A DNA stretch of 28,210 bases from positions 1 through 28,210 of IMG/VR virus record IMGVR_UViG_3300008116_000206, one strand, 5' to 3'. The notes beneath the pieces were generated by a model. That model ran no database searches, was not told the DNA's origin, and saw only the letters and a program-made list of their open reading frames with translations. The translations under genes and the position numbers were made by a program. Shown here in pieces: positions 16,423-28,210 of the stretch (positions are counted from its first letter, which is position 1; every line of letters starts with the position of its first letter). This DNA is from a virus.

Positions 16423-17934
16423 TTATCTTTCAACAACTAAACGTAAATCAATTACTTTAGTTGGATCTTCGATCATCAAGCCACCCCATTTTTGGATGTG
16501 TACTTCGTAACCATCTACACGGGAAGCTACCATTTTTGGCGAACCTTTACCTGCAGGTGAGAACGGATCACGCATACCAGGGATGTATGCCCAGTTGTAA
16601 TCTGGAACTCCTTTTGGTTTAACGCGGTAGATACCAGCGTTATCACCATAGTCAAGAGCTAAGATACGGTGAGACTCAACAATACCTTTTCCATCTGGGT
16701 GACGTTGTGGGAAGTATACGTCATCATCGAAGAAATCAACGATTTCAACCATGATAGTAACTCCGTTGTACCACTCGTACACGTTCCACTGTGGCTCCAT
16801 GAGACCTTTAGTGTTTTTACCACCAAGGTTACCTGGGTTAGTGTTAGATGTAAGGAATTTGTCAGAGATAACTGTAAATTTACCGCTACCAGATTTAGCA
16901 TTGATTTGCTTAGAGATTTCAATTGCACCAAATTCACCTGTTAACAAGTGGATAGTACGTTTGCCACGCTCAAGTTTACCAACACCCATATCCAACAACA
17001 ACTCTAAATGCCAATCAAGGTCATAAGTGTTATAGTAGTGTACGTTTGAAGGAGCGATTTGATCAAAGAAACCTGCACCAGATTCGATAGCATATTTAGT
17101 CTTATCGTCTTTGTTTAAGTACTTGTGATCAGAAGTCCAGTTTTTCTTACCGTACATCAACATACGAGCAAACATTTCTTCTGCTTGGTGGTGAGCTACC
17201 AAATCTTGGTAGTTAATCCAAATAGACTCAGTTTGTCCTTTGTAGTTAAAACCAAACTCAAGTGGTTCGTTTTTACCTTTGTTGATTGTGTTACCTGCTA
17301 CTTCATACTCCATACGAAGTGTAGAAGGACGGTTTTCCATTCTCCAAGGAGAAGTGAAATAAGGCTTAGCACCTTGGTAAGAAAGTGTTGAAGGAGAAAG
17401 AGAGTAGAACTTAGACCAACGTGTACCAATAGCCAATTCCTCAGAAGGAATAGTTTTGTTAGCGTTGTCAGTTACTAATTCAACTTCAAACTTGTAACGA
17501 GAACCAGCATCCATAGCACGTTTTACCAAAAGATGGTAATCGTCTACTTCACCACGAAGAACGTTAGTTTCTTCGAAAAGTGGTTCGTCAAAGATTAAGT
17601 AGAAACGCTCACCGTTTGAACCTACGTTAGCTGGGAATGTACCAGCAGAGATAGACAAACCGTTAATTGTTTCTGCATCAACTAGAGGCAAGTTTTTGTC
17701 GTGTTGACCTTGCAACATCCAGTTGTAGAATCCGTTTTCTTGTTCAACCTCTTTAACAGGGAAACGATCAACGAATTCACGTAATTTACCTTGAAGATTA
17801 GTTTTGTAAATCTCTTTGATTACATTACTAATCAACTGCGGTTTTTGCTGATACAAAGAGTAGAAGTGATTATCAGTCACTAACCCGTTGTAATCTTTAG
17901 CCTCATACCGTTGTAGTGGAAGTAATTGAGCCAT
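16423..17934 (-). CDS. Major capsid protein, crAss-like type (503 aa)
   Basis: The length, position (after portal and scaffold) and composition fit the HK97-fold capsid proteins of crAss-like phages (about 490-510 residues). Visible segments include an N-terminal helix (FYSLYQQKPQLISNVIKEIYKTNLQGKL), a PWRMENRPSTLRMEYEVAGN segment (~residues 197-216), a helix with HHQAEEMFARMLMYGKKNW (~252-271), and a long beta-rich C-terminal part (EPQWNVYEWYNGVTIMVEIVDFFDDDVYFPQRHPDGKG). Codons are richer in C endings than in neighbouring non-structural genes, and a strong terminator follows. No delta-domain protease is seen nearby. Identification is by context and remembered pattern, not alignment. Confidence 0.82.
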   Translation of the reverse strand: MAQLLPLQRYEAKDYNGLVTDNHFYSLYQQKPQLISNVIKEIYKTNLQGKLREFVDRFPVKEVEQENGFYNWMLQGQHDKNLPLVDAETINGLSISAGTFPANVGSNGERFYLIFDEPLFEETNVLRGEVDDYHLLVKRAMDAGSRYKFEVELVTDNANKTIPSEELAIGTRWSKFYSLSPSTLSYQGAKPYFTSPWRMENRPSTLRMEYEVAGNTINKGKNEPLEFGFNYKGQTESIWINYQDLVAHHQAEEMFARMLMYGKKNWTSDHKYLNKDDKTKYAIESGAGFFDQIAPSNVHYYNTYDLDWHLELLLDMGVGKLERGKRTIHLLTGEFGAIEISKQINAKSGSGKFTVISDKFLTSNTNPGNLGGKNTKGLMEPQWNVYEWYNGVTIMVEIVDFFDDDVYFPQRHPDGKGIVESHRILALDYGDNAGIYRVKPKGVPDYNWAYIPGMRDPFSPAGKGSPKMVASRVDGYEVHIQKWGGLMIEDPTKVIDLRLVVER

Positions 17935-17967
17935 TGTTTTTTGTTTTTATTTATTAGACGAATTGTG

Positions 17968-19137
17968 TTATTTCTTATTAAAAGCATTCTCAAGCATAGA
18001 AAGTAGACCCTGTGTTTTCTGTGAAGTTTCTACAGAAGTGTTACGTCCTACACCACGTTGTTCTTCAGCTGCAATAACTTTATCAAGTTCGTTGATTGCT
18101 GCTGTTTTTGCAACTGTTTTAAGTTTAGAGATATCAGGTTTAAACTTACCTTCTTTATCTAAGTTGAATAAACCTATTGTATCATAGTAATTAATCAACA
18201 TTTCAAACTCAACAGGGTTGCGTTTTTGTTTATACATCAAGCTGTTGTACTCTACACCTGTTTCTGGATCCTTATGTACAGGATTCATAATATTGGCTTT
18301 AAGTTTATCTTTGGCAACCTTATTAAGATTTAAACCATCAATAAAAGCATCACGAGATTCAATGTTTTGTACAAGACTATCAAACATTTTAGTCTGCGCT
18401 TCTTGCTCAGCTTTTGTTTTAGTTTCTTTTTCAAGACGCGCACTTTCTACTACTTGATTAGCTTGTTGACGAAGTTCAGGAATTGCTTTTAAAGACTTTT
18501 CTTGTAACTTGTTCATTTGCTCAGCATCATTAATAGCTTCTACCGCATCTTGATCACTAAAGTTTTTAGATTTTAGAAGCTCATAGTAAATCTGTTTTTG
18601 AAGATTTACATCTGATTTTACTGCTTCTGCATCTACTGTATCAAAGAACTCTAATCGTTGGGCCATTAATATTGCTTGGTCCGTAGCATCAAAAGCATCT
18701 TCTATTTCTAAAAAACGCTTTTTAGTAGGGTCTAAATTTCTTTTCCAGTTTTCTTGAGTTTGTTTAACTCCAGTTTCAACTGTTTTAGAAACTAATTCCT
18801 TAATTGTATCTAGAGTACCTGGTAACTCATCTAACTTTTCTACCTCTTCTACTGTTAAAACTCCTGCAGTAACTAACTCTTTCATCAGAGCTTTGTAAAC
18901 TGCTTCGTTTTTAGTAATAGTTTCAGTAGTGTCAGGTTTATCTGGTACTACTTTATTTTCGCCAGCACCTTCTCCTGTTTCAGTTGTTACTGGTGTAAAT
19001 AATGTTGCAGGTTCATTATTTTCCGTTGCTTGACCTGCATTAGTATCTTCTTCTCCTTTTGTTTGACTGTCTACAGCCTTGTTTAATTCTTCAGGCGACA
19101 TTATCTGTAGCCCTTCAAATAATTCATTATTCTCCAT
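17968..19137 (-). CDS. Putative head scaffolding protein (389 aa)
   Basis: The sequence is acidic, helix-rich and free of beta pattern. A disordered T/E/G-rich N-terminus (about residues 20-75) is followed by long coiled-coil stretches (ALMKELVTAGVLTVEEVEKLDEL; AEQMNKLQEKSLKAIPELRQQANQVVESARLEKETKTKAEQEAQ, ~200-255), with a short basic C-terminal end (LLSMLENAFNKK). This plan and the place immediately upstream of the capsid gene are those of phage scaffolding proteins, whose C-terminal helix contacts the capsid shell during assembly. It follows a terminator, so scaffold and capsid form one segment. Confidence 0.72.
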   Translation of the reverse strand: MENNELFEGLQIMSPEELNKAVDSQTKGEEDTNAGQATENNEPATLFTPVTTETGEGAGENKVVPDKPDTTETITKNEAVYKALMKELVTAGVLTVEEVEKLDELPGTLDTIKELVSKTVETGVKQTQENWKRNLDPTKKRFLEIEDAFDATDQAILMAQRLEFFDTVDAEAVKSDVNLQKQIYYELLKSKNFSDQDAVEAINDAEQMNKLQEKSLKAIPELRQQANQVVESARLEKETKTKAEQEAQTKMFDSLVQNIESRDAFIDGLNLNKVAKDKLKANIMNPVHKDPETGVEYNSLMYKQKRNPVEFEMLINYYDTIGLFNLDKEGKFKPDISKLKTVAKTAAINELDKVIAAEEQRGVGRNTSVETSQKTQGLLSMLENAFNKK

Positions 19138-19158
19138 TTTGCTGTCGTTAATTGGTTA

Positions 19159-19166
19159 CAATATTA
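19159..19166 (-). promoter_or_regulatory. Weak candidate -7 box (TAATATTG) before scaffold-capsid segment
   Basis: The minus strand reads TAATATTG, one mismatch from TAnnTTTG, in the 90-base gap between portal terminator and scaffold start at 19137. Its place after a terminator makes a promoter here sensible, but the match is imperfect and no clear -33 box is seen. Confidence 0.25.
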
Positions 19167-19181
19167 AAATTATTTTTATAA

Positions 19182-19221
19182 ATAGGGCCTAGAATCTTTA
19201 TGAGAGCTTCTATGGCCCTAT
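19182..19221 (-). terminator. Intrinsic terminator after the portal gene
   Basis: ATAGGGCC and GGCCCTAT are perfect 8-base arms, extended inwards by TAGAA/TTCTA after a one-base bulge. On the minus strand the hairpin is followed by a T/A-rich tract (TTATAAAAATAATTTT). It starts 7 bases after the portal stop at 19228. Termination strength is less certain than at the capsid terminator because the T tract is interrupted. Confidence 0.8.
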
Positions 19222-19227
19222 AGCTTT

Positions 19228-21690
19228 TTATTTACTCTGTGTGCTTTGAGTCTTTTTAATGTTGAGTTCTTTTGCTTTAAGTTCTTCTGCTACAAGATTA
19301 GCACGAGTCTTTTCTGCAAGTTCTTCTTCTTTTAAACGAATCTGATTAATCTTGTAATTTTCATCGATATCTGTACGGCGTATGTCTATATAATCATCAA
19401 TACCGTTTTTATCAGTATCTACGCGATCTTGCTCTAAACCATTAGCTCTAGCATCACGAACATCAGCACCTATTTCTTTAATCTTAGCAATCTCTAAGTT
19501 AGTTGCCATTTTTTCGCGTTCAATGTTAACAACATCATTATGACGTTTAACTTCAAAGTCAAGAAGTGCTTGCTTAGCTTGGTTGTCCATTTGTGCTGCT
19601 TCTTGTGCTTGTTTAAGTTTGGCTTCTTCCATTTTGTTAGTTTCCTCCTTAATACGTTCAGCAGAATCTTGAAGACGGCGAGCAATGTCTTGTACAGATT
19701 CAGATTGAGAAATAGCAATAAGATCGGAGATAGTAGCTTGACCGTTTTGAATAGCAGCTTGAGAAAGTGCGCGCAAATCTTCGTAAAGTTTAGTATCGTT
19801 GGTAGAGTTAGATACGTGTAGATCATAATCTGTAGAAACAAATTCATCAAATTGTGTAACAAACTCTTGACCCATATCGTCAAGTAGGAATTGTCCCTTT
19901 TTAGGATTAGATTTGTAAGCAAACTTACAGCACTCTAAAAACTTAGTAAGTACTCTTTTACGGAAGTTAGCATCAATAGCAAACCACTTTTCAGTAATAT
20001 GTGATATCTGTGTAACTTCTTGGTTAACGTTAGATACTGCCGCACGCTCTTGTACCTGTCCTTCACGCGCACCTGATACACCTGCTAATTTTCCAAGTGT
20101 GTTTTCAATGTCAAGCAGTAGGTTAGTGTACATGCCGATGGCGTTAGGGTCGCCCATCTGAATTTGTTGAGCAGTTAACTGGTTAAATGCGCCAGCAGAT
20201 TTACCCTGTGATGGGCCTTTGAGAATTTCGTTAGTAGGATCCAACCATGCAAATTTATTAATAGTCACATAGCGCATCCACTCTTTAGGATCCCAACCTG
20301 AAGGAATAAGAGAAGAGTTAATAGCAGTAAAGGACCCCTTGTATGTAGCGATCTCTAGTTCGCGCTTGTAGTAGGCGATGTCATAAGAATAAGCAAGAGG
20401 CTTCATCACGTCCATGAGAGATTGGACTTTGTAATCATTGGTAGAGTTAACAGACCCTACATACGGAGGGGTGCCTTTAGATTTGTTTACTAATGATTTT
20501 GATGCATAAGGTACAGGACGCATAAGTGTATAAATATGGTCGGCAATTTTTGTACCTTCCATCCACTCATTGACCCAGATCCACTTAACAGTCTCTCCTA
20601 ATTCTTTTTTAGGTCGATAGTCTTCGGGAACATAGTCTTTTTGTTCTTGTCCGTCTTCATCAAAATATGTTAATTCTCCAATTTTACGACGTGATCTCCA
20701 GCATACTTTTAATACACGGACATTACCATATGTATCAAAAGCACCTGCAAATGTTCGTGTTCCCATCTCATTAGGATGGAATATATTCATTGCTCCTTGT
20801 TCTCCGTAGTAATCATACACCGAGATATCACGATTGAGACCAATACCGCCACCTGTTCCAAGTGACGCATCTACTTTACCATTTTCTAAGAAATCAATAT
20901 CAGCAGGTTCTAGTGTATCCCAATAGTCATCAATTACTTGGCCAATAGATTTGTAGCCATACTCTACAATAATGTCAGCATCCTCAATATACATTGAGTT
21001 GCCTCCCATAGTATAAAGGTTCATTGGGTTTACTCGACGCATAACAGGATTACCGCCTAGTACTCCACAATACATAATTTCTTCGCCTCCAACTAATAAG
21101 TCTTCAAAAGTTTTAAGGAAAGTAAAATCAAAGTCACCTTCTTTGTATTCTTTCTTGAGAATCTTGTTAGCTACTGTTTCTGCAATATCCTGATACTCAT
21201 ACTTGCGATAGTGCTCAAATTGTTTTAGTCTTTTTTGAATCTCCTCTTCTGTAAGCGATGTACTCATGATCATTTCGCTAGTGATCTTTTTGAGTTCATC
21301 CATAAGACCCATTTCTTTACGGCCGATAGCTTCAGAATCATTAGAAGAGATATAAGCTTTAAACTCTTTACGTCGTTGAGAGTATTCGCCAAGTAGTAAA
21401 TTAATCTTAGTATTCTCAATGCCGATATGTTGAAAGCTAGCAGGTAAAGATTCTAGATCTAGATTATCAGGGTTAATAAACTTTTCAAAATCTTTAGTAT
21501 TGATTATATTAGCTCTAAGATTATAATTAGTCTTTTTGTTCTTAAAGTTAGAACGTAGATTAACATCAGAGGTGAGCAAGTGCTCTGCAAAGTCCATGTT
21601 TTTCTTATACCAGTAATCGGTCTTTTCTTTGTCAGACAGTTTCTGACGAGGGAAACTGATATATCCTTGAATCTTTACAGGTGCGCTCAT
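19228..21690 (-). CDS. Portal protein, crAss-like (820 aa)
   Basis: This is a large alpha/beta protein beginning MSAPVKIQGYISFPRQKLSDKEKTDYWYKKNMDFAEHLL. The centre has portal-like features: INLLLGEYSQRRKEF, GGEEIMYCGVLGGNPVMRRVNPMNLY, a stem/crown region with RRKIGELTYFDEDG, and RERAAVSNV-type YxKxE helices (SGAREGQVQERAAVSNVNQEVTQI). Residues from about 670 to 815 form a long charged coiled coil with many K/E/Q repeats, as in crAss-like portals of about 800 residues. Within it, near residues 752-766, is DTDKNGIDDYID, a calcium-loop motif. The portal forms the dodecameric DNA channel at one capsid vertex and partners the terminase encoded just upstream. Confidence 0.88.
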   Translation of the reverse strand: MSAPVKIQGYISFPRQKLSDKEKTDYWYKKNMDFAEHLLTSDVNLRSNFKNKKTNYNLRANIINTKDFEKFINPDNLDLESLPASFQHIGIENTKINLLLGEYSQRRKEFKAYISSNDSEAIGRKEMGLMDELKKITSEMIMSTSLTEEEIQKRLKQFEHYRKYEYQDIAETVANKILKKEYKEGDFDFTFLKTFEDLLVGGEEIMYCGVLGGNPVMRRVNPMNLYTMGGNSMYIEDADIIVEYGYKSIGQVIDDYWDTLEPADIDFLENGKVDASLGTGGGIGLNRDISVYDYYGEQGAMNIFHPNEMGTRTFAGAFDTYGNVRVLKVCWRSRRKIGELTYFDEDGQEQKDYVPEDYRPKKELGETVKWIWVNEWMEGTKIADHIYTLMRPVPYASKSLVNKSKGTPPYVGSVNSTNDYKVQSLMDVMKPLAYSYDIAYYKRELEIATYKGSFTAINSSLIPSGWDPKEWMRYVTINKFAWLDPTNEILKGPSQGKSAGAFNQLTAQQIQMGDPNAIGMYTNLLLDIENTLGKLAGVSGAREGQVQERAAVSNVNQEVTQISHITEKWFAIDANFRKRVLTKFLECCKFAYKSNPKKGQFLLDDMGQEFVTQFDEFVSTDYDLHVSNSTNDTKLYEDLRALSQAAIQNGQATISDLIAISQSESVQDIARRLQDSAERIKEETNKMEEAKLKQAQEAAQMDNQAKQALLDFEVKRHNDVVNIEREKMATNLEIAKIKEIGADVRDARANGLEQDRVDTDKNGIDDYIDIRRTDIDENYKINQIRLKEEELAEKTRANLVAEELKAKELNIKKTQSTQSK

Positions 21691-21716
21691 AATAATTTTT
21701 TAACTAAGATACAAAT

Positions 21717-23888
21717 CTATGAATAAAAATTTGAATCAAATGTAGTAGGTATTTTCTTTTTTATTACACCCATTTTTTCAAAGTAGGGATCATCTAAGAA
21801 AGTTTTTACTTCTTCTACGCGTTGAGTTACTTCTTTATACATAGTAGAATCTAACCACATTAACATAATTAACGCAGAAACTCTATCAAAGTTTCCATCA
21901 GGGTTCCACATAATTAACTCTGTAATAATACCAGAAGAATAAATTGTCTCATATACGCGGGTCTCAGACACAGTAGATATTCTTTCTTGTAGCCAAGACT
22001 TAATCATATTACGTCCTTCTGAGTTAATAGCACCAGATGCGTTAATACCTTTAGATGTGTTAGTACCTGCTTTATAAGTATCTGTAGATCGTAACTGATA
22101 AGGAGTTTCTGCTAAAAGATACGTACATTTCATCTGGTCAAAATAATTATAAAGCCCGATGAGGTTTTTCTCATACATACCCACAGCGTTGTAGTATAAT
22201 AATAACTTACGACATGTTTCGTAGAAGTCCTTAGCCTCACCTGTACGGCCTGTATACTCTGCTACTATTTGTCTAGTAAGTCTATTCATTATTAGTATAC
22301 AAGGGAGAGAGTCTGTGGTTGACTTATCTTTATCAACAACGTCGATTCCTGCTATGTAGGTACCACGAGGTATAATCCCATCAGGATTTCTTTGTGGCTT
22401 AACCCAGATTTCTATACAGCCCCGCTTGTCATCATTTTTACTGAGTGGATATTTTCTAATAGGAGTAGCATCTTGCTCTGTGTAAAACTCTGGTTCGTTT
22501 TTAGTATTAAAACTGATGTGTCCTTTAAAGCTAGCCTCTTGGTATTTTTTATATTTACCGCCCTCTACTTCAGCAAGTTGTTCTTTGAGTAGTAAGGTAG
22601 GAAAGAAAGCGCCTTCGAGTACCAAGAAAGCCTCGGATGGTACTTCAGGACCGTTGATGATTTCTGTTTGATATACAGTAGGGTCTGGTGATTTTTTAGC
22701 CGTAGTACGTTTGTCTTCAATGTATAGTTTAGCTAGATCTAAATCTGTGATGTAGTCCTCTGTTTTTTTAAACTCATTAAGAGTGAGTCTGTATGGTACA
22801 AAATAACCTATGTTGCCACGGTTTTCAAAGATATCCTCAAAGATTAAGCAGTTATAATCTTGAGGATTACGAAATACGGACTCTGCATAGAGTGCTGCTC
22901 TACCAGATACAAGACCGCCTGTTCCTAAAGCCCAGATAACTAAGCTTTTCTTGGCCTTTGATGCTTGTGTTGCTTCAATAGCACCCCAAGATTCTTTAAG
23001 GTTGTACATGAAACCTACCTCATCGAGAATACACAGGTTAGGACGAGTACCGTTAGCTGCAAGTGGGTTATCTTTAAAAGATCGGTGGCGTAATACCGAC
23101 CCTGTACCTGTTGTACCTTCTCGGTTAGGCATTAGAGAACCCGTATAAGTAGTAGCTAGTGGTGAAGGGTATTTATCGTCTCCCATTTCAAAGCTACCTG
23201 GCAAAAGTGTTAAGGCAGTTTGAATCTTCTTCATTAGCGGCACGGTATACTTAGTATCAATCGCCCCAATGATAGTATCAGATGCTAGAAATTGCTTAGC
23301 TTTCTTACGTTCTAGATAGTCATCATAGTCAGTAGCACCATCAAAAAGAAAGTTATGGGCGGCAATACCTGATGAGGAGTAGGATTTACCTGAACCACGA
23401 GCCTGAATACTGATTAAATGCTGTGCAGAGTTACGATATAAGGGTTTGCCTAGGTTTTTTGGGTGGATTCTGCGTAGATATTCTCTAGCAGGAATGTAAG
23501 TTTTAGAATTAGCCTCAGCTTCTGTGATACGCTGTAGTTTAATGGCCATCTCTTTCTCTGGGCCATACTTTCTGTCGCATGTGAAAGCAGTATCTTCACT
23601 AAAACCAGAGAATCCACGACATTCTTCATATATCAAAAACAACTCCCAATCGATGTCGCGTAGAAACGGTAGACCAAAGGCCTGGGAAACTGAAGTGTCG
23701 TCTTCAAACTGAATGTTATGAAAGTTTATGTAATAATAAAGAGGTCCAGGCATCCACTTACCACCGACCCAATAACCTTCTATACACTTGCGTTTCTCAT
23801 CTCTCCAAAAAGAAACACGATCATAGTATTCTAACTCTGGATGGAAGTTAGGAATCTCCTTGAGCCTAAAGTTAGAATTGTTTATCAT
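21717..23888 (-). CDS. Terminase large subunit (723 aa)
   Basis: An N-terminal ATPase carries Walker A ARGSGKS (residues 163-169), Walker B LCILDE (285-290) and the coupling motif ALGTGG (320-325). The C-terminal RNase H-like nuclease has AGIDVVDKDKSTTDS (513-527, first acid D516), the MYEKN segment (E573) and DGNFDRVSAL (D664/D668). The N-terminal ~90 residues, with WVGGKWMPGPLYYYINF, are the usual lead-in of large terminases of this clade. It packages phage DNA into the prohead through the portal. It overlaps no neighbour: two bases after the preceding stop and 26 bases before the portal start. All catalytic motifs look intact. Confidence 0.95.
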   Translation of the reverse strand: MINNSNFRLKEIPNFHPELEYYDRVSFWRDEKRKCIEGYWVGGKWMPGPLYYYINFHNIQFEDDTSVSQAFGLPFLRDIDWELFLIYEECRGFSGFSEDTAFTCDRKYGPEKEMAIKLQRITEAEANSKTYIPAREYLRRIHPKNLGKPLYRNSAQHLISIQARGSGKSYSSSGIAAHNFLFDGATDYDDYLERKKAKQFLASDTIIGAIDTKYTVPLMKKIQTALTLLPGSFEMGDDKYPSPLATTYTGSLMPNREGTTGTGSVLRHRSFKDNPLAANGTRPNLCILDEVGFMYNLKESWGAIEATQASKAKKSLVIWALGTGGLVSGRAALYAESVFRNPQDYNCLIFEDIFENRGNIGYFVPYRLTLNEFKKTEDYITDLDLAKLYIEDKRTTAKKSPDPTVYQTEIINGPEVPSEAFLVLEGAFFPTLLLKEQLAEVEGGKYKKYQEASFKGHISFNTKNEPEFYTEQDATPIRKYPLSKNDDKRGCIEIWVKPQRNPDGIIPRGTYIAGIDVVDKDKSTTDSLPCILIMNRLTRQIVAEYTGRTGEAKDFYETCRKLLLYYNAVGMYEKNLIGLYNYFDQMKCTYLLAETPYQLRSTDTYKAGTNTSKGINASGAINSEGRNMIKSWLQERISTVSETRVYETIYSSGIITELIMWNPDGNFDRVSALIMLMWLDSTMYKEVTQRVEEVKTFLDDPYFEKMGVIKKKIPTTFDSNFYS

Positions 23889-26958: not shown

Positions 26959-26966
26959 GACGTAAT

Positions 26967-27015
26967 GTCCCTTTTAGGGGACTTTTAACCCCCTATAAGT
27001 CCCTTTTAGGGGACT
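26967..27015. repeat. Direct repeats GTCCCTTTTAGGGGACT, two copies 32 bp apart
   Basis: The identical 17-base unit occurs at 26967-26983 and 26999-27015. Each copy is itself an imperfect palindrome (GTCCC...GGGAC), so it could also form a short hairpin. They abut the promoter of the RepL-like gene. Possible roles are iterons bound by the initiator, or operators controlling the divergent promoters. Two copies only, so not a CRISPR array. Confidence 0.7.
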
Positions 27016-27091: not shown

Positions 27092-27271
27092 GGAACCTTC
27101 TTTCAGTAGTTAAGGGTATAGCCTTATATACCAAAAAAATTTTCAGGGTATGGCCTAAAAAAATACACCAGTGGTTTAAAAAAATATACCCCCCCCCCTA
27201 TTCCCTGTGGGGAAAAACTAAGAAGAGGCAATAGTGGTTACCACCTAGACCTCGAACCCCTACTAACTTTT

Positions 27272-27294
27272 GGGCGGGGGAAACACCCCCGTCC
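27272..27294 (+). other. Very stable GC hairpin in the leader of the 98-aa gene
   Basis: GGGCGGGGG pairs with CCCCCGTCC (eight Watson-Crick pairs and one G-U) around loop AAACA, 25 bases before the ATG. There is no T-run after it, so it is not a standard terminator. It may protect the 5' end of the mRNA or form part of a leader switch. Confidence 0.65.
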
Positions 27295-27319: not shown

Positions 27320-27616
27320 ATGGCACTAAACATCAACCTCATCTCGGCTACCGTCAAGCAGTACGGTACGCCTCTATTCCAACTCGAAGAGACTATCGGC
27401 ACCTTCGATGCTAACACTGCCGATATCACCATCGTCGACGACACGACGTTTATGTTTCAAGGCTACTATGTACGCCTTCGAAACAAAAACATCGAGGCAG
27501 GCGAGACTACTGCGACACCACGTGAGTGGACCATGGGACAGTTCGTCTCGACACGTGAGTTCGAGTTCAACGGAACCACGTATCCTGCTGGTCGTCAGGT
27601 ACTTATGGCGTTCTAA
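27320..27616 (+). CDS. Small protein (98 aa) with atypical, C-rich codons; unknown
   Basis: No known family is recognised. The product MALNINLISATVKQYGTPLFQLEET... is predicted beta-rich (DITIVDDTTFMFQGYYVRLRNKNI; EFEFNGTTYPAGRQVLMAF), soluble, with no signal peptide, cysteine or membrane segment. Codon use differs sharply from the minus-strand genes: Ile is mostly ATC, Phe mostly TTC, Asn mostly AAC and Thr often ACC/ACG, consistent with strong selection for expression or with foreign origin. The leader element CCTCTAAAACC sits six bases before the ATG, and a UUCG-loop terminator follows nine bases after the stop. It is the first gene of the plus-strand block, so an early, abundant phage protein is a reasonable guess. 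Confidence 0.8.
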   Translation: MALNINLISATVKQYGTPLFQLEETIGTFDANTADITIVDDTTFMFQGYYVRLRNKNIEAGETTATPREWTMGQFVSTREFEFNGTTYPAGRQVLMAF

Positions 27617-27650: not shown

Positions 27651-27712
27651 GTTGTTCTGCGGTCCTTAAATACGACTCGATATATTAAGTTTATCGCTTA
27701 ATTCAGTATTCA

Positions 27713-27723
27713 CCTCTAAAACC
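27713..27723 (+). promoter_or_regulatory. Leader element CCTCTAAAACC before the micro-ORF
   Basis: It is identical over 11 bases to the element before the 98-residue gene, with an ATGG start seven bases downstream (six in the other case). Since the intervening sequences are unrelated, the element looks functionally conserved and makes translation of the micro-ORF plausible. Confidence 0.55.
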
Positions 27724-27730
27724 TCAGACT

Positions 27731-27799
27731 ATGGAGACATACATCATAGTAGACGGTGTTGTTACTATCCTCGAATGGGTAGTAAACACCAACGCATAG
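27731..27799 (+). CDS. Micro-ORF (22 aa)
   Basis: Reading ATG 27731 to TAG 27799, the peptide begins METYIIVDGVV and ends WVVNTNA; it is hydrophobic-to-acidic and too short for a transmembrane prediction. Evidence that it is translated is the leader element shared with the 98-residue gene and C-ending codons (ATC, GAC, ACC, AAC). Its stop codon lies in the loop of hairpin ACGCAT/ATGCGT (27792-27809), so translation could affect RNA folding downstream. It may be a leader peptide rather than a functional protein. Confidence 0.5.
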   Translation: METYIIVDGVVTILEWVVNTNA

Positions 27800-28107
27800 T
27801 AACATGCGTGATAAACACAGCCCTTTGACTAGGGCTATGTTTAATATACTCTCATCCAATAGGTAAATGTGGGCCATCAGAAATGATGTCTGCTTCAAAT
27901 GTGTCACATACATCAAGGATTAGAACCTTGTGAGAGTACTAATCTAGGAGATGATACGTAGGCCTAGCTACAATTAACTAATCTGCACCATTCTCACTTC
28001 CCAAGGGTGAGCAGTTGTAATATACTCCCAGTAAATTTGCCTATAAGGTTTGGGGTTAAAACACGTAAAAGTAGCCAGTGAAACAAATGGTTGTGGTATT
28101 ACAACTG
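27792..28107 (+). ncRNA. Candidate structured RNA / long 5' leader (about 315 nt)
   Basis: Nearly continuous base pairing on the plus strand: (1) ACGCAT/ATGCGT, 27792-27809; (2) a 12-bp hairpin TAAACA.AGCCCT/AGGGCT.TGTTTA with one mismatch, 27812-27843; (3) a three-way junction closed by TACTCTCA/TGAGAGTA (27847-27854 with 27931-27938), holding ATGTG/CACAT, a GNRA hairpin CATCA-GAAA-TGATG, and CAAGG/CCTTG stacked on the closing stem; (4) CTAGG/CCTAG, 27944-27967; (5) CTCAC/GTGAG, 27993-28011; (6) a perfect 11-bp stem CAGTTGTAATA/TATTACAACTG (28012-28022 with 28097-28107) enclosing ATTTG/CAAAT. No open frame covers it. It matches no known riboswitch or ribozyme that I can recall. Confidence 0.6.
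27812..27843 (+). terminator. 12-bp hairpin after the micro-ORF, possible terminator
   Basis: TAAACA and TGTTTA, then AGCCCT and AGGGCT, pair around the loop TTGACT with a single C-A mismatch. It follows the micro-ORF stop by 12 bases. No proper T-run follows, so it may be only the first domain of the structured RNA; the two readings are not exclusive. Confidence 0.45.
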
Positions 28108-28133
28108 AGTGCAGAGGGGTTAACTATTATTTA

Positions 28134-28143
28134 CCTTTAAAAC
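28134..28143 (+). promoter_or_regulatory. Leader element CCTTTAAAAC before the right-edge gene
   Basis: One mismatch from the element of the two other plus-strand genes, eight bases before ATG 28152. It supports this ATG as a genuine start. Confidence 0.5.
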
Positions 28144-28151
28144 TAAACACA

Positions 28152-28210
28152 ATGAACACAATCAGATTAATCGGAAGACTAGCAGTAAGCATGCTAATTG
28201 TAATCTTATT
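28152..28210 (+). CDS. N-terminus of a membrane or exported protein (truncated by window)
   Basis: Only 19 codons are present: MNTIRLIGRLAVSM followed by LIVIL. Basic residues followed by a hydrophobic run suggest a signal peptide or membrane anchor. The TAAAA leader lies upstream, and the start is 44 bases after the last stem of the structured RNA candidate. Function cannot be told. Confidence 0.55.
   Translation, partial: MNTIRLIGRLAVSMLIVIL

Follow-up and report, generated by a model that had tools for sequence, protein, structure and literature searches.

Two uncatalogued families of structured RNA with variable arms in crAss-like phages

Introduction

Known small ribozymes are built on a conserved core with invariant loops and junctions, to which peripheral stems of free length are attached, and we know of no established natural role for the hatchet ribozymes. 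Exonuclease-resistant RNAs have a build comparable to a three-way junction with a loop-to-tail pseudoknot, and the phi29 packaging RNA and synthetic three-way-junction scaffolds feature a rigid junction that is able to bear foreign arms. Few phages of Bacteroidota are as widespread as the crAss-like phages, and for much of their early region there is no explanation. The GOLLD and ROOL RNAs are structured phage and prophage RNAs often located near tRNAs, composed of conserved and variable parts and with no function assigned (PMC12286853). The pistol ribozyme, small and phage-associated, combines three stems with a pseudoknot and is often found near phage genes (PMC4604425). A 2023 review of the Crassvirales contains neither "noncoding" nor "non-coding" and refers to ribozymes solely in the context of self-splicing introns (PMC10136315).

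The 28 kb window analysed here (the whole stretch of 28,210 nucleotides of viral DNA) contains two RNA modules, A and B, which are two uncatalogued structured RNA families of crAss-like phages. The open papers searched describe no such modules in these phages; an earlier description in subscription papers is possible.

Genome setting and distribution

The window belongs to a crAss-like phage and encodes a Crassvirales-type terminase (phrog_6681), portal (phrog_6547) and major head protein (phrog_11589) on the minus strand. Among named phages, the closest are Cellulophaga phage phi14:2 and gut Crassvirales, with approximately 23-36% protein identity. A divergent plus-strand unit of short genes begins at about 27.3 kb, and the RNA modules sit within this unit (Table 1).

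The 22-aa ORF at 27731-27799 is kept in relatives, with the L011 version reading MNKLVVVNGVVTILSWVVNTNA. The DNA of this ORF is also capable of forming a hairpin, and it may represent a leader peptide or a further RNA element. The leader GTGGTTACCACCTA...ACCCCTACTAA (27236-27290), which precedes the 98-aa gene, contains a C/G-rich hairpin, resembles the 22-aa ORF in sequence and is conserved, being shared with L002-L022. Within the divergent intergenic region, positions 26966-27012 feature 'tcccttttaggggact' repeats of inverted-repeat character, a candidate regulatory or origin site. The sequence AAATACGACTCGATATA at 27668-27684 is similar to the T7 RNA polymerase promoter (TAATACGACTCACTATA); neither L010 nor L011 preserves it in that form, and the similarity is probably due to chance.

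Module A recurs in at least 119 viral contigs (pattern for its 3' half) and module B also in at least 119 (pattern for its 5' half, with P2 left free). Each of 32 records contains one copy of A and occasionally two, and the reversed-pattern control returned none. A crAss-like portal gene is held by 24 of the 26 host records checked, and in all 24 module A is on the strand opposite to it. Across 168 loci holding A or B there are no strand conflicts, and downstream frames of at least 110 aa are co-directional in 338 cases versus 13 opposite. The tRNAs of these loci, where present, are typically 1-5 kb downstream and favour the same strand (51 versus 11), and the span around the modules that is free of frames of at least 110 aa has a median of 1.8 kb. 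The modules lie at the head of the divergent transcription unit, opposite the structural-gene strand, in a gene-poor array. A covariance model of B, R1, identified the module in 17 of 21 contig records and in 0 of 9 named phage genomes, though it scores copies with large inserts low and misses some genomes. Blastn queries made of the window end and of the A core provided nothing meaningful among named phages. Among GTDB cellular genomes there were only two exact matches to the A pattern, both without the 5' half of A, and they look like chance.

Table 1. Positions of features in the window and, where a locus or accession is given, in related phages
Feature	Position	Strand	Basis or remark
Terminase, portal and major head protein genes of crAss-like type	16423-23888	-	PHROG matches and named relatives
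98-aa gene of the divergent unit	27320-27616	+	Served as query for relatives
22-aa ORF (METYIIVDGVVTILEWVVNTNA) immediately 5' of the RNA stretch; GVVTILxW core	27731-27799	+	Sequence comparison
Small hairpin ACGCAT/ATGCGT spanning the stop codon of the 22-aa ORF	27792-27809	+	Also in L011 and L022, with different loops
Hairpin, 12 pairs including one C.A mismatch	27813-27842	+	z -5.4
Module A, three-way-junction RNA	27847-27938	+	105 copies of the form among the matches listed; covariation; arm families
A, P1, TACTCTCA/TGAGAGTA, 8 bp	27847-27854/27931-27938	+	Covariation
A, junction UCCAAUAGG	27855-27863	+	
A, variable arm	about 27864-27913	+	Holds CATCA-GAAA-TGATG hairpin, 27875-27888
A, P3, CAAGG/CCTTG, 7-nt loop AUUAGAA	27914-27918/27926-27930	+	Stacks directly on P1
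Linker between modules A and B	27940-27983	+	27944-27967 is CTAGGAGATGATACGTAGGCCTAG
Module B, three-way-junction RNA	27984-28119	+	Model R1: 27984-28120, 70.4 bits; covariation
B, P1 (closing stem), TGCAC/GTGCA	27984-27988/28109-28113	+	
B, P2, CTCAC/GTGAG, loop UUCCCAAGG	27993-27997/28007-28011, loop 27998-28006	+	
B, P3, CAGTTGTAATA/TATTACAACTG, 11 bp	28012-28022/28097-28107	+	Capped by the 74-nt variable arm, 28023-28096
B, 3' tail GAGGGG	GGGG 28116-28119	+	Possible pseudoknot with loop UCCC, 27999-28002
Next gene, start only (MNTIRLIGRLAV...), small membrane-like protein	28152-28210	+	Runs off the window end; complete copies in relatives
Hatchet (RF02678)	L028:46-208, L064:2069-2206, L096:10327-10463, L098:8591-8727, L113:968-1104		Rfam
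Hatchet (RF02678)	L117:4453-4619, L133:258-395, L144:5635-5767, L149:6387-6553		Rfam
Hatchet (RF02678), named crAss-like genome cr10_1	NC_055875.1:28907-29033		Rfam
Module C, GACGTGATATTCGTCGTATACCTGAGCATG...CTGCTC	L026, L028, L071, L109 and others		GACG/CGTC versus GCAG/CTGC
Module D, ACCACAAGGTTTCAGGC...GACTTGTGGT	L028, L043, L073, L104		AACCTC/GRGGTT versus AAACTC/GAGTTT

Organization of the structured stretch

The original prediction for this region was about 315 nt of RNA-like structure with a three-way junction. All of its stems are present, and the 8-bp P1, GAAA arm and CAAGG/CCTTG stem of A and the 11-bp stem of B around 74 nt are as described. The structured RNA with a three-way junction is borne out by covariation, but it is not one RNA: the stretch is composed of the hairpin at 27813-27842 followed by two independent modules, A and B. 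The closing stem TGCAC/GTGCA, which with the P2 hairpin was missing from the prediction, makes module B a second three-way junction. The predicted 12-bp hairpin is found at 27813-27842 but is not perfect. Its C.A mismatch is replaced by a U-A pair in L012 and L005, and L011 features a differently spelled hairpin at the equivalent position. No conserved reading frame runs through the modules, with arm lengths covering all three classes modulo 3. The near-identical TAATATACTCyCA with which both main domains were said to begin does occur in the window, but as a meaningful repeat it is rejected. Among the relatives checked, the pair is found in near-identical contigs only, and its two sites are non-equivalent, one being 5' of the P1 of A and the other at the start of the variable arm of B; it looks coincidental.

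The minimum-energy fold of 27792-28120 recovers both module cores with a z-score of -2.4, while A scores -2.1, B alone -0.8 and the linker, which alone is predicted to fold poorly, +0.5. This surplus of folding energy is only modest, and relatives were therefore sought for covariation among related contigs, which were gathered by protein searches with two neighbouring genes. Alignment of the relatives with the window identified high-similarity blocks split by unrelated insertions, the pattern of a modular region. The linker piece CTAGGAGATGATACGTAGGCCTAG is found again immediately 5' of a module A in L046, and by this recurrence it may be a further small module.

Comparison of 27700-28210 with the 4227 families of Rfam 15 provided no match at E<=1, and the best match at E<=10 reached 17.5 bits against a threshold of 50, consistent with the suggestion that the RNA may be new. 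A single large RNA resembling GOLLD or ROOL, as had been considered, does not fit, since the two small modules are also found apart from each other and in varying order. The alternative proposal of a cis-regulatory leader for the gene at 28152 is likewise rejected, since the same modules stand in many gene contexts with many different downstream sequences, and in L012 and L015 genes or RNA intervene.

Covariation of the module cores

The convincing support for structure is covariation in relatives rather than folding energy. Compensatory changes in the stems, arms included, go beyond the controls (shuffled and slid for B, slid for A), and modules A and B are almost certainly real structured elements.

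Module B has the general form UGCAC-CA..-[P2]-UUCCCAAGG-[P2']-CAGUUGUAAU-[variable]-AUUACAACUG-A-GUGCA-GAGGGR. Among 35 distinct B cores with the arm removed, 98.5% of stem cells are paired, versus 33-54% when the partners are slid by 1-3 columns. Two-sided changes are present in 74 cells compared to 18 in shuffles, and the covariation score is reached by no shuffle. P2 is found in more than a dozen fully paired spellings, including CTCAC/GTGAG, CCTGA/TCAGG, TCTAC/GTAGA, TCAGC/GCTGA, CTATC/GATAG, CTTAT/ATAAG and CTCCA/TGGAG; because P2 was left free in the search pattern, this covariation is not an artefact of the search. P1 alternates between TGCAC/GTGCA and TGTAC/GTACA. The loop UCCC and the tail GGGR are paired in 94% of cells with zero two-sided changes, so that the loop-tail pseudoknot is only suggested by the sequences.

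Module A has the general form UACUCUCA-UCCAAGCAGG-[variable]-CAAGG-RUUGCAA-CCUUG-UGAGAGUA. Its copies were found by sequence patterns rather than by a covariance model, as the insert lies within a bulge, which such models handle badly. In 30 A cores, 99.0% of stem cells are paired versus 33-58% when slid, the former figure being inflated since the helix search itself demanded pairing. Two-sided changes are seen in some relative for 5 of the 8 pairs of P1 and 2 of the 5 pairs of P3, the 3' half being partly fixed by the search pattern and so showing less variation. G-U pairs occupy 12 cells of P1 and A-C combinations 3, and in the stems of B the corresponding counts are 25 and none. This tolerance of G-U, with A-C almost never present, indicates that the folding molecule is the plus-strand RNA. 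The rare junction AAUAGG is found with the rare loops AUUAGAA and AUUAUAA, and AAGCAGG and AAUUGCAGG are found with RUUGCAA; this partnering, in few independent cases, suggests that the loop of A contacts the junction.

Variable arms and their exchange

Among the matches listed, the arms of A fall into 48 clusters in 99 copies and those of B into 102 clusters in 123 copies. Two large A-arm clusters have covarying folds of their own, with two-sided changes in 5 of 25 and 5 of 18 predicted pairs. Four contig pairs contain unrelated A arms between flanks that are identical on both sides. Identical B arms are found on cores differing in P2 (L091/L208 and L113/L133), and three B arms recur elsewhere on quite different stems (L200 twice, L175). 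Identical arms on different cores and different arms between identical flanks indicate that arms and modules are exchanged. Whole modules also come and go, as L015 contains a B module between CGCTTAAT and AGTATTCACC and the window has none at that place. The B core of L139 is almost armless, so the core fold does not require the arm. Arm folding energy is approximately one standard deviation below shuffles, equally on the antisense strand. A cis-antisense role was rejected, as complementarity of arms to their own phage region is in no excess over other loci, and so was a common pool of A and B arms, since a search for A-B arm matches found none.

Hatchet ribozymes and further modules of the arrays

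An Rfam scan of 48 related loci identified hatchet ribozymes (RF02678) in nine, with tRNAs, one tmRNA and one DUF805b as the other matches; A and B matched no family in these loci either. In the loci with compared coordinates, the hatchets are on the A/B strand roughly 0.5-1.3 kb upstream. They are separate modules, and A and B themselves have no RF02678 match, which rejects a hatchet identity for either. The arm of the hatchet also differs between phages. These arrays provide a natural genomic context for this ribozyme class.

At least two more recurring modules (C and D) exhibit compensatory changes. One recurring module has the form GACG-UGAUAUU-CGUC followed by UGAGCA...UGCUCA, where GACG/CGUC alternates with GCAG/CUGC, and another has the form ACCACAAG...CUUGUGGU. 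The tmRNA (RF00023, 78.9 bits) spans 555 nt of a related-phage contig (L188:6973-7527) and probably contains a large insertion. A tRNA-Leu-like gene (L048:10332-10489) carries roughly 70-80 extra nt, and even the tRNAs of these phages seem to bear extra arms.

Proposed function and alternative explanations

The preferred explanation, plausible though held at slightly less than even confidence, is that A and B are early-transcribed RNA modules acting in trans, each pairing a constant handle with a payload arm that can be exchanged. Judging from position, the modules would be transcribed early with the divergent unit. The constant core would be a handle for folding, stabilisation or binding, and the partner it meets would be invariant, whereas the swappable arm would be the payload that sets specificity, most plausibly toward variable host factors. 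A payload of this kind might, for instance, counteract host RNA metabolism or defence as an antagonist or a decoy. Related phages recombining at the conserved cores would swap arms and whole modules, which would explain both the different arms found between identical flanks and the identical arms found on different cores. In favour of this reading are the covariation, the conserved place and strand, the modularity, the folds that the arm families have of their own and the dispensability of the arm. Against it, the stability of the arms exceeds shuffles by only about one standard deviation and is equal on the antisense strand, the arms are without complementarity to the same phage region, their variability is equally expected of neutral peripheral ribozyme stems, and the presence of hatchets in these arrays speaks for some modules being catalytic or involved in processing.

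The main rival is that A, B or both are new classes of small self-cleaving ribozyme that cut the early transcript, with the junction and loop residues as the active site and the arms neutral. We regard this as rather unlikely. In its favour, the core is conserved, its loops and junctions are invariant and the peripheral stems vary freely in length, as in known small ribozymes. In 9 of 48 loci the arrays also contain hatchets, on the strand that carries A and B, the candidate loop-tail pseudoknot of B is paired in 94% of cells, and known ribozyme classes have been discovered through such a neighbourhood, pistol often being near phage genes (PMC4604425). No known ribozyme model matches A or B, however, and the arm families show their own covarying folds. 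Near-identical arms also recur on different cores and flanks, where neutral arms would be expected to drift, although recent recombination alone could explain this. It is improbable that the modules are instead cis-acting punctuation of the early transcript, such as exonuclease barriers, processing sites or antitermination signals for neighbouring genes. Their location between co-directional genes of the early unit, in many cases immediately ahead of a gene's AT-rich leader, would suit that role, and a three-way junction with a loop-to-tail pseudoknot would in principle resemble exonuclease-resistant RNAs. Yet a genome contains only one or two copies of A, not one for each gene, A has no fixed neighbour gene, and the very large pool of arms would be left without a role.

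Small mobile or recombination elements acting as DNA, with the module ends as terminal inverted repeats or folded single-strand sites and no RNA function, would account for the sharp, constant and complementary ends, the variable interiors and the presence or absence of whole modules, as for B in L015 and the window. This is very improbable given a copy number of one or two, a conserved location and an invariable strand, flanks with no evident target-site duplication, internal stems that covary, and a preference of B for G-U over A-C as expected of a one-strand RNA. A transposable element with terminal inverted repeats was rejected on the same copy number and strand and on a target-site duplication that inspection by eye did not find.

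An extension of the reading with a constant handle and an exchangeable arm is possible, and we put it forward with some doubt. In this extension, a few three-way-junction scaffolds would form a combinatorial RNA system into which recombination plugs structured domains from a very large shared pool, yielding phage-specific early effectors against the host, and a new ribozyme class may also be represented by at least one of the scaffolds. In the early region of crAss-like phages there are at least two large uncatalogued RNA families whose covariation is clear, beside hatchets. If the arms are payloads, nature would have its own version of the scaffold-plus-aptamer designs used in synthetic biology, and phages could vary their interaction with the host without proteins; if the cores self-cleave, they would be new ribozyme classes.

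Comparison with known systems

Module B shares its general build with pistol, its pseudoknot being only suggested; it differs from pistol in having no Rfam match and in its conserved residues and order of elements. The hatchets resemble A and B in being small RNAs with a conserved core, and in related phages they occupy the same arrays and the same strand, but A and B differ from them in conserved sequences and junctions. A rigid three-way junction able to bear foreign arms would be shared with the phi29 packaging RNA and the synthetic scaffolds. In contrast to the phi29 packaging RNA, with sequence comparison made through Rfam only, A and B are located in an early-side array and are not tied to packaging genes. 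The 5-bp stem and 7-nt loop of A stack on an 8-bp closing stem as the T arm stacks on the acceptor in the elbow of tRNA and tmRNA, and the loop may likewise touch the first junction; the RUUGCAA loop is not a T-loop consensus, however, and no tRNA or tmRNA was called in the window. The modules share with GOLLD and ROOL that they are structured RNAs encoded by phages, frequently located close to tRNAs, and made up of a conserved and a variable portion (PMC12286853). GOLLD and ROOL are single large RNAs, whereas those described here are separate modules, mostly about 65-200 nt, arranged in arrays.
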